Assembly: GCA_029252405.1 (NCBI GenBank)
Contig: JAQXBM010000064.1
Location: 62,001 to 126,000, forward strand
Reading direction: 5' to 3'
Length of the DNA stretch: 64,000 bases
From: Crocinitomicaceae bacterium
Lineage (GTDB): Bacteria; Bacteroidota; Bacteroidia; Flavobacteriales_D; Crocinitomicaceae
Shown here: positions 45,776-49,388 of the stretch, piece by piece
Layout of the letters: each line of letters starts with the position of its first letter
How positions within the stretch are numbered: the first letter of the stretch is position 1
Notes under the pieces: model-generated
What the model was told of the DNA's origin: nothing
Database searches by the model: none
Seen by the model: only the letters and a program-made list of their open reading frames with translations
Translations under genes and position numbers: made by a program

Positions 45776-47545
45776 TTATGGATTTGTGAGTTGAACAACG
45801 GTAAAGTTTTCAAGTATTCCGCTGAATTCAAATTCAGAATCGACGTAGAATTTTGCAGTTGTACCTTTCTTCTGTTTCGGCACTTTATAGAAGAATTCAT
45901 AGGAATTTGATTTTCCTTCAGTGCAATAGACATTGAACAAGCGAATCCGTCGTTTTTTAAGTTGTTTCCCTTTGCCACTTCGGCACGCCAGATAACTCGT
46001 TTGAAATCCATTTTCTGCTTTAATCGTGGCGCTAATTTTTAGCCAAGCGTCATCGGAGGCATTAACATCAAGATTTAAAAATGAGGTTTTACCTATTTGG
46101 ATGGGTTCATTGGATTGATGCAGTACTTTTTTCTTGAATCCACTTTCATCGTTGAGTATCTCGTCCGTATCCAGCAGGCTCATGTCAACAGGCGTAGGGT
46201 CGCTATTGAGATAGATGTGGGCGTAGTAAAGTCGATTGTTGTCTCGAGTATGAATGATTCCGTCGTTGTATTGTCCAATTTGAAAGAGGTTGACAAAAAT
46301 TAAATAGCCTGCAACAGGAATCAAGAACCATTTCCATTTCTTTTGAAGGATGGTGTGAATAACTGCCGTCAATGGCAATGCGAAAATGGGGTAACTTTGC
46401 GTCAATGCCCGTGTGGAGTATTGTGCTCCGTATTTCCAATCGGCCCAAGAAATAATGATCCAAATATTCAGCAAGCAAAAAATAATCACGGATCTTCTGA
46501 AGGGCATGTTTTTCATGAAAAAGAAACCAGCAATAAACAAAATGGTGACGGGCGTGTAAATGAACCATCCTGTTTCCCAGCCAAAAAGCACTCGGAAAAA
46601 TGGCGTCAAAAATCGCCAGCTACTCCCAACGTCGTGGATGAAGGTTCCAGCGGTCATTTTCCAATAAATCAATTGGGGTAGAATACCAATTAAACCAAAG
46701 GCAATGGTGATGTAAATGTGCTTTTTGTGTCTTCGAACAAGTGCCCATTTTTCTTGTTTCGCCTCTTTGGATTGCGTATTCCAGAGGAGCGGAATAAACA
46801 ACATGATTGCTTCAGTAGGGCGCGAAATGGTCGCCAAACCAATGATTAATCCAATGGCAGCCGCCCAAAAGAAGGTCGGTTTTTCATGCCATTTGACCGT
46901 CGCGTAAAGAATTAGGACGTACAAAGGAAAAATGTAGACATGACTCAATCCTGCATCAACAGAAATGTATTGAATCAGGTTCGATGCCAAGAAAAGTAGA
47001 ATCAAACTAATGGAAACGGCTAGGTCGTCGTAATACCGAAGGAGAATGTTCCGAAGTAAAAACAAGGCAAGAATGCAGTACAAAACTGCTCCGTAAGCCA
47101 AGGTGTACTGATAAGGTGGTGAGAATCCATCTGCGGGATAATCAGAATTGAGCGCGATTACATGCGCAATTCCAAATAGTGGCATCTGCATGATTGATAC
47201 GCCACCCAAATATTTGTTGACGTAGTTACCATTGTCTGCTTTGTGCGCTTGGTAGAAGTTACCATCTGACAAATGGTATTTCTCGTTCATTTCTGGATAC
47301 CAATCCAATTCTGTGAAATCGTCGTAAATGAATCCTGAAGGCAGGTACATGTAATATCCCAAACCATCCCAATTGGTGAGCATCATTGGGTAGCTTCTGT
47401 CAAAGTAAGAATAGGTGTATCGCGTTTGTAACAGCGTAACTGAAACAATAATACACGCGATAAGTGAGATGATATTCTTCAAAAACTGACAAATTTTGAC
47501 CGAAGATAGGTTTTGAAAAGGAATTTTTGGCAGATGAAAAGTCAC
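45776..47545 (-). CDS. GT-C type membrane glycosyltransferase-like protein
   Basis: The 589-residue protein has an N-terminal helix (about residues 24-43) and a periplasmic loop with TNWDGLGYYMYLPSGFIYD, whose Asp is typical of GT-C enzymes. About ten further helices follow, and a soluble C-terminal part is beta-type. It likely transfers sugar from a lipid-linked donor at the periplasmic face of the inner membrane. The start is GTG 47545; an in-frame TTG at 47482 would start directly at the membrane helix after a TATCTTCG box, so the true start may lie there. Confidence 0.75.
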   Translation of the reverse strand: MTFHLPKIPFQNLSSVKICQFLKNIISLIACIIVSVTLLQTRYTYSYFDRSYPMMLTNWDGLGYYMYLPSGFIYDDFTELDWYPEMNEKYHLSDGNFYQAHKADNGNYVNKYLGGVSIMQMPLFGIAHVIALNSDYPADGFSPPYQYTLAYGAVLYCILALFLLRNILLRYYDDLAVSISLILLFLASNLIQYISVDAGLSHVYIFPLYVLILYATVKWHEKPTFFWAAAIGLIIGLATISRPTEAIMLFIPLLWNTQSKEAKQEKWALVRRHKKHIYITIAFGLIGILPQLIYWKMTAGTFIHDVGSSWRFLTPFFRVLFGWETGWFIYTPVTILFIAGFFFMKNMPFRRSVIIFCLLNIWIIISWADWKYGAQYSTRALTQSYPIFALPLTAVIHTILQKKWKWFLIPVAGYLIFVNLFQIGQYNDGIIHTRDNNRLYYAHIYLNSDPTPVDMSLLDTDEILNDESGFKKKVLHQSNEPIQIGKTSFLNLDVNASDDAWLKISATIKAENGFQTSYLACRSGKGKQLKKRRIRLFNVYCTEGKSNSYEFFYKVPKQKKGTTAKFYVDSEFEFSGILENFTVVQLTNP

Positions 47546-47606: not shown

Positions 47607-47635
47607 TTTGGCACATTTTTTAGACACTATATTCT
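47607..47635 (+). promoter_or_regulatory. Candidate promoter of small RNA copy 1
   Basis: TTTGGCACATTTTTT at 47607-47621 is identical in front of both small-RNA copies and begins with a -33-like TTTG. TATATTCT at 47628-47635 is a six-of-eight match to TAnnTTTG with 17-nt spacing. Confidence 0.5.
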
Positions 47636-47636
47636 C

Positions 47637-47707
47637 GAATAGTGGTTAGGTTAGGTTAACAGAGAACGCCTGTTCTCTGGGAAAGCGGTCGCAAGGCCGC
47701 TTTTTTT
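47637..47707 (+). ncRNA. Candidate small RNA, tandem copy 1 (71 nt)
   Basis: The 71-nt element starts GAATAGTGG and then has an unpaired stretch of TTAGG-type repeats (GGTTAGGTTAGGTTAA). Hairpin 1, CAGAGAAC-GCCT-GTTCTCTG, follows (8 bp, perfect). It ends in a terminator hairpin AAAGCGGTC-GCAA-GGCCGCTTT with a GNRA loop and a run of seven T. Copy 2, 208 nt downstream, differs at one base. That base changes a U-G pair of the terminator stem into U-A, so pairing is kept. No open frame fits. It is most likely a free-standing regulatory RNA, with the unpaired repeat as possible target-binding seed (inference). Confidence 0.7.
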
Positions 47708-47815
47708 ATGCCCTAATGTGAAGATTCAGTTCGTCCATCTGAATAATTTCTCTGACCAGGTCGATTCATCGAATAAATAGGGCGTTTCAACAGTTTTTTC
47801 TATTTCACCGCAAGG

Positions 47816-47842
47816 TTTGGCACATTTTTTCGTCTAAAGTAA
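47816..47842 (+). promoter_or_regulatory. Candidate promoter of small RNA copy 2
   Basis: TTTGGCACATTTTTT at 47816-47830 is identical to that before copy 1. The -7 region (around TAAAGTAATTG) is diverged and a poor match to TAnnTTTG, so the two copies may differ in strength. Confidence 0.4.
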
Positions 47843-47844
47843 TT

Positions 47845-47915
47845 GAATAGTGGTTAGGTTAGGTTAACAGAGAACGCCTGTTCTCTGGGAAAGCGGTCGC
47901 AAGACCGCTTTTTTT
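47845..47915 (+). ncRNA. Candidate small RNA, tandem copy 2 (71 nt)
   Basis: This element is identical to copy 1 over 70 of 71 positions and has the same two hairpins and seven-T terminator. The only difference is A at 47904 where copy 1 has G at 47696; it makes the second stem AAAGCGGTC/GACCGCTTT fully Watson-Crick. The spacer between copies is not conserved beyond the upstream box, which points to selection on the RNA. It ends 93 nt before the AtoE-like gene, so a leader (riboswitch-type) role for that gene is the main alternative. Confidence 0.7.
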
Positions 47916-48008
47916 GTGCCCAAATTTTCTTGGAATTCAATTGGCGAATGATGCTTCACATTCGCTTTTTCTTATTTTCGTACGAGGAACAACTTCGAAT
48001 CAACTTCT

Positions 48009-49388
48009 ATGAAATTGCTTAACGGTATCGAGAAAGTATTTAAATCGTTTTTACCGACGCCTTTCACCATCGCTATTCTCATTACCATTGTCACTTTTCT
48101 CCTAGCGTTTTCTTTAACGGATTCTGATTTGGATTCAGGCTCGCGAGGATTGGAACTCGTTGGGTTTTGGTACAACGGCCTCTGGAAAACGACACTACTG
48201 GAATTCGCTGTGCAGATGATGTTGATGCTTGTTTTGGGACATGCTCTAGCTCTCACAAAACCTGTCGATCGATTCATGAGTTTCATGACGCGGTTCTGTA
48301 ATAATACGGCGACTTCAGCCTTCACAGTGACCCTTTTGACCATTCTTGTTTCTCTCTTCAATTGGGGCTTGGGGTTGATTTTTGGTGCCATCCTTGCGCG
48401 GAAAGTAGGGGAACAGGCAGCGATCAAAAACATCAATTTGAATTATGCACTGATTGGCGCTGCAGGATATAGCGGCTTGATGGTGTGGCACGGTGGAATT
48501 TCAGGATCGGCGCCCATTAAAGCATCTGAGCCCGGTCATGTCGCTTCATTGATGGAAGGTATTCTTAGTCCCGATGAGTTAGCGCACTTGCCGGAAAGCA
48601 TCCCAATGACTGAGACAGTATTCGGATCAATGAACTTGTTCGTGATGGTGCTGCTCATTATTTGCATTCCGCTCTTCATGTTTTGGATCGGGAAACGATC
48701 AAAGAAGTCCGACAGTTTGCCGGTGGTGAAATCTTCAACGACCGCTAACGAAGATATAGAAAGTACTAAAGTTGATAGTTCCCCCTGGTTTTCACGAACC
48801 ATTGGTTTATTGATTTGTGCATACGCGGTATATATTGCTGTTACCGCCATAATCAAGGATAAAGAATTTGTGCAGCCTAACTTTATCAATTTCACTTTGC
48901 TCGGGTTGGGTTTACTGCTACATTCGAGTGTTCATGGGTTCTTAAAAGCGATTGATCAAGCGATTCGCGGAGCAGCAGGAATTCTCATTCAATTTCCTCT
49001 GTACTTTGGAATTATGGGCTTGATGATTGGCTCGGGTTTACTCCAAGTATTCTCTGATTTCTTCGTTGATATTTCCACGGAAGTTTCATTCCCTATTTAT
49101 TCCTTCATCAGTGCTGGAGTTGTGAATGTTTTTGTGCCAAGTGGAGGAGGGCAGTGGGGTGTTCAGGGTCCAATTATTGTTCAATCTGCCCTGGAGCTAG
49201 GTGTGAGTCTTCCTAAATCGATAATGGCGCTCGCCTACGGCGATCAATTGACAAATATGCTGCAACCATTTTGGGCTTTGCCACTTTTGGGTATTACAGG
49301 ATTGAAAGCGAAAAGCATTTTGCCTTATACGCTGTTGATGATGTTGGTGGGAGCGGTAATTTACCTCGCAGCGCTACTCATATTTTGA
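48009..49388 (+). CDS. Short-chain fatty acid transporter-like protein (AtoE/TIGR00366)
   Basis: The 459-residue inner-membrane protein has about 12 helices and the family segments FNWGLGLIFGAILARKVG, YSGLMVWHGGISGSAPIKA and FVPSGGGQWGVQGPI. E. coli AtoE carries acetoacetate/short-chain fatty acids; the bacteroidal substrate is unknown. A TATTTTCG box lies upstream. It follows the two candidate small RNAs and precedes the Nramp-like gene by 3 nt, so these two transporters probably share a transcript. Confidence 0.88.
   Translation: MKLLNGIEKVFKSFLPTPFTIAILITIVTFLLAFSLTDSDLDSGSRGLELVGFWYNGLWKTTLLEFAVQMMLMLVLGHALALTKPVDRFMSFMTRFCNNTATSAFTVTLLTILVSLFNWGLGLIFGAILARKVGEQAAIKNINLNYALIGAAGYSGLMVWHGGISGSAPIKASEPGHVASLMEGILSPDELAHLPESIPMTETVFGSMNLFVMVLLIICIPLFMFWIGKRSKKSDSLPVVKSSTTANEDIESTKVDSSPWFSRTIGLLICAYAVYIAVTAIIKDKEFVQPNFINFTLLGLGLLLHSSVHGFLKAIDQAIRGAAGILIQFPLYFGIMGLMIGSGLLQVFSDFFVDISTEVSFPIYSFISAGVVNVFVPSGGGQWGVQGPIIVQSALELGVSLPKSIMALAYGDQLTNMLQPFWALPLLGITGLKAKSILPYTLLMMLVGAVIYLAALLIF

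Follow-up and report, generated by a model that had tools for sequence, protein, structure and literature searches.

Two tandem elements upstream of a short-chain fatty acid transporter gene

The window analyzed here, a 64,000-nucleotide stretch of a Crocinitomicaceae genome, carries two short tandem elements between a divergently oriented membrane-protein-like gene and a gene for a short-chain fatty acid transporter. The interval and its neighbors are laid out as follows.

45776..47545, minus strand: neighboring membrane-protein-like gene, without a Pfam match
47607..47621, plus strand: upstream box of copy 1, TTTGGCACATTTTTT, of the form TGGCA-N6-TT (sigma-54 spacing, -12 half imperfect)
47637..47658, plus strand: single-stranded family module of copy 1, GAATAGTGGTTAGGTTAGGTTA (predicted fold, relatives)
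47660..47679, plus strand: hairpin 1 of copy 1, CAGAGAAC-GCCT-GTTCTCTG (one compensatory pair among paralogs)
47680..47707, plus strand: intrinsic terminator of copy 1, GCAA loop and T run (predicted fold)
47816..47830, plus strand: upstream box of copy 2, the same as the copy 1 box
47845..47866, plus strand: single-stranded family module of copy 2 (predicted fold, relatives)
47868..47887, plus strand: hairpin 1 of copy 2, GCCT loop
47888..47915, plus strand: intrinsic terminator of copy 2 (A at 47904 gives U-A in place of the U-G of copy 1)
47943..47966, plus strand: further terminator-like hairpin, downstream of copy 2 and ahead of the transporter gene
48009..49388, plus strand: neighboring short-chain fatty acid transporter gene (PF02667, by Pfam)

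Alignment and folding of the two copies (47637-47707 and 47845-47915) bore out the description given in an earlier note on this DNA. The same base stands at 70 of 71 positions, and the only mismatch, G at 47696 in copy 1 and A at 47904 in copy 2, exchanges a U-G for a U-A in the terminator stem and so keeps the pair. The predicted fold of either copy begins with 23 unpaired nucleotides and continues with an 8-bp hairpin closed by a GCCU loop, an 11-bp terminator with a GCAA loop, and a T run. Fold energies are -27.4 kcal/mol for copy 1 and -28.0 kcal/mol for copy 2 (z scores of -3.84 and -4.22, respectively), and none of 200 shuffles was equally stable. The box TTTGGCACATTTTTT precedes both copies unchanged, at 47607-47621 and 47816-47830, while the rest of the spacer between them has diverged, another point on which the note was right. 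The additional terminator-like hairpin at 47943-47966 and a third related RNA on another contig of the same genome (G000:C90, L002) go beyond what it had recorded.

The unpaired block marks a very probable RNA family of the Crocinitomicaceae

At the conserved core of an RNA family that is widespread in the Crocinitomicaceae stands the block GAATAGTGGTTAGGTTAGGTTA. A same-genus search with a 331-nt query gave matches at E ≤ 0.001 in 25 of 34 genomes, the window's own genome counted, and the 23-nt block was exact in the short matches listed. Scanning the named genome contigs with GAATAGTGGTTAGGTTARGTTR, a pattern that allows two R positions, returned 65 stretches, whose titles mostly name Crocinitomicaceae, Fluviicola, Taishania, Flavobacteriales, or Bacteroidetes. 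Seven are titled otherwise (Chitinophaga three times, and Kuenenia, Actinomyces, Chryseobacterium, and Glaciecola once each); at least five of these odd titles (L098, L102, L114, L121, and L134) are probably wrong, the sequences appearing to belong to host-family genomes. All 14 genomes of the Fluviicola-type genus hold 1 to 7 modules of any class, compared with 0 to 2 in a reversed control (both strands summed). These amount to 58 module matches, 56 of them exact; their loci were inspected for part only.

Wider searches stayed close to the host family. An order-wide search for a 20-nt pattern with up to two mismatches hit 41 of 299 genomes; the match in the sole one outside the family (G215) is unlike an RNA of this kind. 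A sequence model, R1, had matches at E ≤ 0.01, many of them weak, in 105 of the 399 genomes searched in the order. All except two of these (103 of 105) lie, by our reading, in the host family, and the two outside, G208 and G218, matched at E values of about 0.01; among the genomes listed for genus g22, within the host family, R1 matches were weak at best. The model was built on sequence without structure because RNAalifold, run on 39 core RNAs whose terminators vary in length and register, returned a doubtful 6-pair structure with no compensatory change. Class-wide, a 16-nt module with at most one mismatch occurred in 23 of 395 genomes, 16 of which are outside the host family and have matches that look coding or random; L185, a class-wide match outside the family, passed a crude terminator test. 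No convincing member was found outside the host family in the genomes of the order and class that were searched.

The earlier note had stated that no RNA of this form was known to it, and the Rfam searches agree: the element matched nothing even at E ≤ 10, and the whole window had no match at gathering cut-offs. In eight relatives' loci the RNA matched other families only far below threshold, and the covariance model of the Flavo-1 RNA (RF01705) did not match at the element. No description of this RNA was found in the open-licence PMC literature, where a string match led solely to a dust-mite microRNA paper. Separately, Flavo-1 has a near-match at L002 171-254 (41.5 bits, with the cut-off at 42), more than 1 kb from the core sRNA on that contig. 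It is very probable that these RNAs form an unlisted multicopy sRNA family of known general design. The window pair is a derived branch of this larger family, whose conserved part is the UUAGG-repeat block and not the hairpins.

Members share the block and differ in what surrounds it

Common to the members of the family is an unpaired block in which GGUUA/UUAGG units are repeated two to four times (GUGGUUAGGUUAGGUU, or variants rich in UUAG). The terminators behind the block differ between members, and so do the promoter-like boxes, which are either TAnnTTTG (sigma-A type) or TGGCA-N6-TT (sigma-54 spacing). We sorted the members into classes A to E, a grouping of our own.

Class A, the core class, consists of a promoter box, in many members a 5' stem-loop (AAAGATT...AATCTTT), the unpaired TTCAGTGAATAGTGGTTAGGTTAGGTTA, and a terminator; it is usually single-copy and mostly convergent to its neighbor, often metH. 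When 39 of the 41 RNAs were aligned, leaving out L048 and L082 (the latter has a 3-nt insertion before the module, GTGAATAATAGTGG), 27 columns were invariant, 26 of them inside TTCAGTGAATAGTGGTTAGGTTA.GTT. TAnnTTTG lies 48 to 95 nt upstream in 42 of 65 instances (seven of the 65 are class B copies and one is viral), compared with 5.6% of shuffles. The flanking ORFs cluster into methionine synthase (26 sequences), an AcrB-type transporter (23), and RNase HI (20); the core copy of the window's own genome is not beside metH in the flank examined. By our count the next ORF is convergent in 41 of the 54 class A loci with an ORF called, so the RNA is not a leader there.

Class B comprises the window pair and its relatives in G005, G011, and G029 (four genomes of the host genus, eight copies seen) and is distinguished by an extra hairpin. 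The box TTTGGCAC stands upstream of six of the eight copies, and two have no box. The three G011 rows carry G-C in place of A-U in hairpin 1, the one compensatory change there, and all 133 counted cells pair. Covariation is nevertheless weak, because the alignment has only seven distinct rows and 438 of 500 shuffles reach as many both-side pairs; sliding the partners by -3 yields an equal both-side change count, though just 38.3% of cells then pair. Relatives of the transporter gene are found downstream of the RNA in three of the four class B loci, the flank of L004 being too short to tell, and relatives of the membrane-protein-like gene adjoin the RNA divergently in all four.

The remaining classes have only the module and a terminator in common with A and B. 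Class C, from the Fluviicola-type genus and some others, is GATTTAGGTGGTTAGGTTAGGTTGATT plus a hairpin, in many cases with a TAnnTTTG box a few nucleotides before GATTTAGGTGGTTAGGTTAGGTTGATT. Class D is AGTAGTAGTTAGGTTAGGTT plus a terminator (L071, L072, L350, and L351), and class E is AGGTTTAGTTGTAAAAGGTAGGTTAGGTTAGGTTA plus a terminator directly behind a TAnnTTTG box, an arrangement seen in all four members (L363 to L366). The number of repeat units also varies, with two in L344 to L346, L352, and the second L004 copy and more in L348.

The earlier note had read the pair as a duplicated trans-acting RNA under selection. That reading is supported as far as sequence can tell, by a single-stranded block conserved family-wide, by terminators that vary, and by the one compensatory change in hairpin 1, with its weak statistics; neither transcription nor action in trans has been shown. 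Homologues, the absence of which would have spoken against it, exist across the genus and the family and carry only that one weakly supported compensatory change. Nothing that we saw points to a transposon or other repeat, although target-site duplications and linked transposases were outside the search. Judged from the same kind of data, these are in all likelihood real trans-encoded RNAs.

Exact modules are linked to terminators and to promoter-like boxes

A terminator-like hairpin follows 62 of 71 distinct exact-module contexts but only 41 of 3000 random positions; some of the loci tested came from longer-query searches and others from the module pattern alone. Given this linkage and the recurrence of the 22-nt block in relatives, the window pair is not a chance occurrence. 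For nine exact modules no terminator was detected. Seven of these sit on viral contigs and look like chance; in the other two (L229 and L235) a hairpin is present, but its T run is poor. Visual inspection likewise showed no clear terminator for another two modules, both in L353.

Promoter-like boxes were counted in 99 non-viral contexts with module and terminator, RNAs of identical 3' context being merged. TAnnTTTG occurs within 105 nt upstream in 53 of 99, against 1010 of 20000 random windows, and TGGCA-N6-TT in 6 of 99 (one RNA counted twice), against 190 of 20000; no context has both. A sigma-54 promoter reads TGGCAC-N5-TTGC. The class B box keeps the spacing TGGCA-N6-TT in six of eight copies, but its -12 half is TTAG or TTCG, without the sigma-54 GC; this half reads TTGA in L343 and L175. 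RpoN is encoded in the genome. Assignment of the class B box to sigma-54 is thus putative and only partially supported. Occurrences of the box, copies included, numbered 10 in the window's own genome (4 for the reversed control), 13 in G005 (5), and 12 in G011 (11), and the box marks no clear wider regulon.

One recurrent detail concerns hairpin loops. In a loose set of 89 hairpins, viral loci included, a C-KCCC-G loop is frequent (ACGCCCGT 11 times, TCTCCCGA 9, ACTCCCGT 5, and TCGCCCGA 5). None of 15 other terminator-like hairpins in the window has a C-(G/U)CCC-G loop, and GCCU in hairpin 1 of the window pair (47660-47679 and 47868-47887) is a variant.

The module is also found on phage contigs

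At least three phage contigs (L152, L155, and L161) carry the module together with a terminator. Their phage identity rests on gene content: a terminase in L152, an endolysin and an exonuclease in L155, and a portal protein and a DNA methyltransferase in L161. In L154 the module lies beside a tRNA-Ser, and two proteins tested there had no PHROG match; L156, which has a DNA polymerase III alpha gene, may be a bacterial contig. The other nine of the 14 viral contigs examined look like chance or unrelated matches. A viral search with the near-variant AGTWGTTAGGTTAGGTT gave 13 contigs, but by eye a module followed by a terminator was not clear in any of them, and a viral search for the RRM protein described below confirmed none.

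The leader of an RRM gene consists of the same motif

UUAGG repeats recall the sites bound by RRM proteins of the hnRNP A1/Musashi type. One RRM_1 protein, of 109 amino acids, was found in the window's own genome.

L312 1390-1731 (G000:C89): RRM_1 gene, between a membrane-protein-like gene and an enoyl-CoA-hydratase-like gene (both named from sequence)

Its solved relatives include a P. gingivalis RNA-binding protein (7jly, E of 1e-15) and eukaryotic RRMs, some of them better-scoring. The 12 nt that separate the preceding stop codon from the RRM ATG are UAGUUAGGUUAG, the sRNA motif in the same sense, an observation from one genome. The leader reads TAA-TAGTTAGGTTAG-ATG, and TAGTTAGGTTAG is contained in the class D core. 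We inspected this leader after the idea of an RRM partner had been stated; the idea itself dates from the RRM count. In a 1.5-Mb sample, which is redundant, mostly drawn from around these RNAs, and not genome-wide, TTAGGTTAG precedes an ORF of 60 or more codons within 25 nt in 4 of 131 distinct contexts, and by eye the RRM gene looks like the only credible ORF of the four. A tblastn search across the relatives' loci found the RRM gene of the own genome only, and no relative's RRM gene was obtained. Matches in Fluviicola had been considered as RRM leaders, one of them, for example, ending in ATG; most of those inspected are further module-terminator arrangements.

Comparison with known systems

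In the CsrA/CsrB-RsmY systems, protein-binding motifs, GGA in hairpin loops, occur in both the sRNAs and the target mRNAs. Our case would follow this logic, with a motif in putative decoy RNAs and at the RRM mRNA start (one genome, without binding data), and it differs in the UUAGG motif, in the proposed RRM partner, and in RNAs far shorter than CsrB. The Qrr sRNAs of Vibrio come in several near-identical copies, have sigma-54 promoters, and act by base-pairing with the help of Hfq, whereas the sigma-54-like box seen here is imperfect and belongs to few members only.

In B. thetaiotaomicron the RRM protein RbpB binds single-stranded parts of the multicopy FopS sRNAs, its own mRNA has an RbpB binding site, and it counteracts FopS repression; FopS base-pairs near susC-type starts and has been deposited in Rfam (PMC11697453, of which a part was available). 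RbpB is reported to bind GUAGGAUA (PMC12119571, citing Adams 2021). Bacteroides generally lack Hfq, ProQ, and CsrA and encode RRM, KH, and cold-shock proteins instead, and sRNAs antagonizing Csr have been described, according to the available portion of that article (PMC12119571). In Flavobacterium psychrophilum, whose Rfp RNAs are flavobacterial sRNAs as ours are, Rfp18 pairs through its third stem-loop, and sigma-54 promoters have been described (PMC9723704, likewise a partial text). As far as these incomplete sources go, our RNAs resemble FopS in being multicopy and in combining a conserved single-stranded 5' stretch with a Rho-independent terminator, here predicted only. The FopS/RbpB system further shares sigma-A type and other promoters, a phage copy, and an RRM protein, and the site in the RbpB mRNA has its possible counterpart in the motif at the RRM start, for which there are no binding data. 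The differences from FopS are that our RNAs have no Rfam match (the presence of a FopS model in the library is unconfirmed), that their core is a short UUAGG repeat, and that a 5' stem or an additional hairpin is present in some members. Pairing near susC-type starts, as the accessible text describes it, is a feature of FopS, and our limited tests gave no such signal.

A decoy model and its alternatives

The motif has the same sense in the sRNAs and in the RRM mRNA, which rules out pairing between them through it; the natural reading is that both compete for one binder. The motif in the RRM leader suggests a Csr-like loop of decoys and autoregulation akin to RbpB/FopS in Bacteroides. We therefore favor, with a probability of roughly 0.5, the reading that the window pair represents two tandem genes for trans-encoded sRNAs of about 70 nt, from the class B branch of the family, that act as decoys for an RRM protein. 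The partner would most likely be a single-stranded-RNA-binding protein of RRM type. Such a protein could occupy its own translation start by means of the leader motif, and the sRNAs could titrate it off that mRNA and others, much as CsrB/C titrate CsrA; alternatively, the sRNAs and the RRM protein might be mutual antagonists in the manner of FopS and RbpB. Phages with a copy of the module would then pull the same lever. That the RRM protein found here is the partner of the module is nearly an even bet, with no binding data and a leader motif from one genome. We also infer, without RNA-seq data, that members of the family differ in the conditions of their transcription but share a single partner. 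The scheme in full, in which a UUAGG-binding RRM protein represses its own and other mRNAs at the start codon and is countered by decoy sRNAs of two to four repeats, under different sigma factors and exploited by phages, is offered only tentatively.

The main rival to this protein-site model is that the RNAs act by base-pairing, with the invariant G/U-rich block as a seed for AACCUAACC-type sites near several start codons, in the manner of R1 in FopS; R1 of GcvB is likewise such a pairing seed. This remains a serious possibility, if not the one that we would choose, since the block has the marks of such a seed: it is unpaired in the window folds, invariant, and terminator-linked. The class B module also has a 12-nt complement, TTAACCTAACCT, about 20 nt upstream of a recJ-like ATG in the own genome (L263, G000:C83:103413; the gene is named from sequence without a family search, and conservation of the site was outside the analysis). 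However, six of the nine occurrences of TAACCTAACC in the genome are inside the three RNAs, and no target common to the four genomes is visible among the contexts shown. Duplexes of the module with 56 start regions in the window reached -15.2 at best, no better than the mean best of -17.2 for 50 shuffled modules, and copies with two, three, or four repeats and UAG-rich variants are explained at least equally well by a protein site in repeated form. Searching the own genome for the complement gave 19 matches and the reversed control 112; as the control is made of different words, we do not claim depletion of the complement.

Two other explanations carry less weight. The co-orientation of the transporter gene downstream in three of four class B loci, with the fourth too short to tell, would suit a cis-acting leader or tandem attenuator of that gene, but we think this improbable: core members have the same module, yet in 41 of 54 loci the next ORF is convergent to them, a further terminator-like hairpin intervenes between copy 2 and the transporter gene, and 5' parts and contexts differ in the other classes. 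The transporter gene (PF02667) is not thought to belong to the RNA. Even less likely is a mobile or selfish repeat, such as a transposon end or a REP-like element, that includes terminators incidentally. The family is indeed multicopy, tandem in places, and present on phage contigs; yet it is the short module alone that is common, whereas terminators, 5' parts, and promoters vary by class, and the core member keeps its neighbors across many genomes.

A conserved multicopy sRNA family, in part phage-borne, whose simple repeat motif also stands before the start codon of the only RRM gene detected, would open a partnership between an RRM protein and sRNAs outside the gut Bacteroidales to direct testing. 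Some 100 candidates for RNA genes (99 contexts) in environmental genomes gain a family identity.
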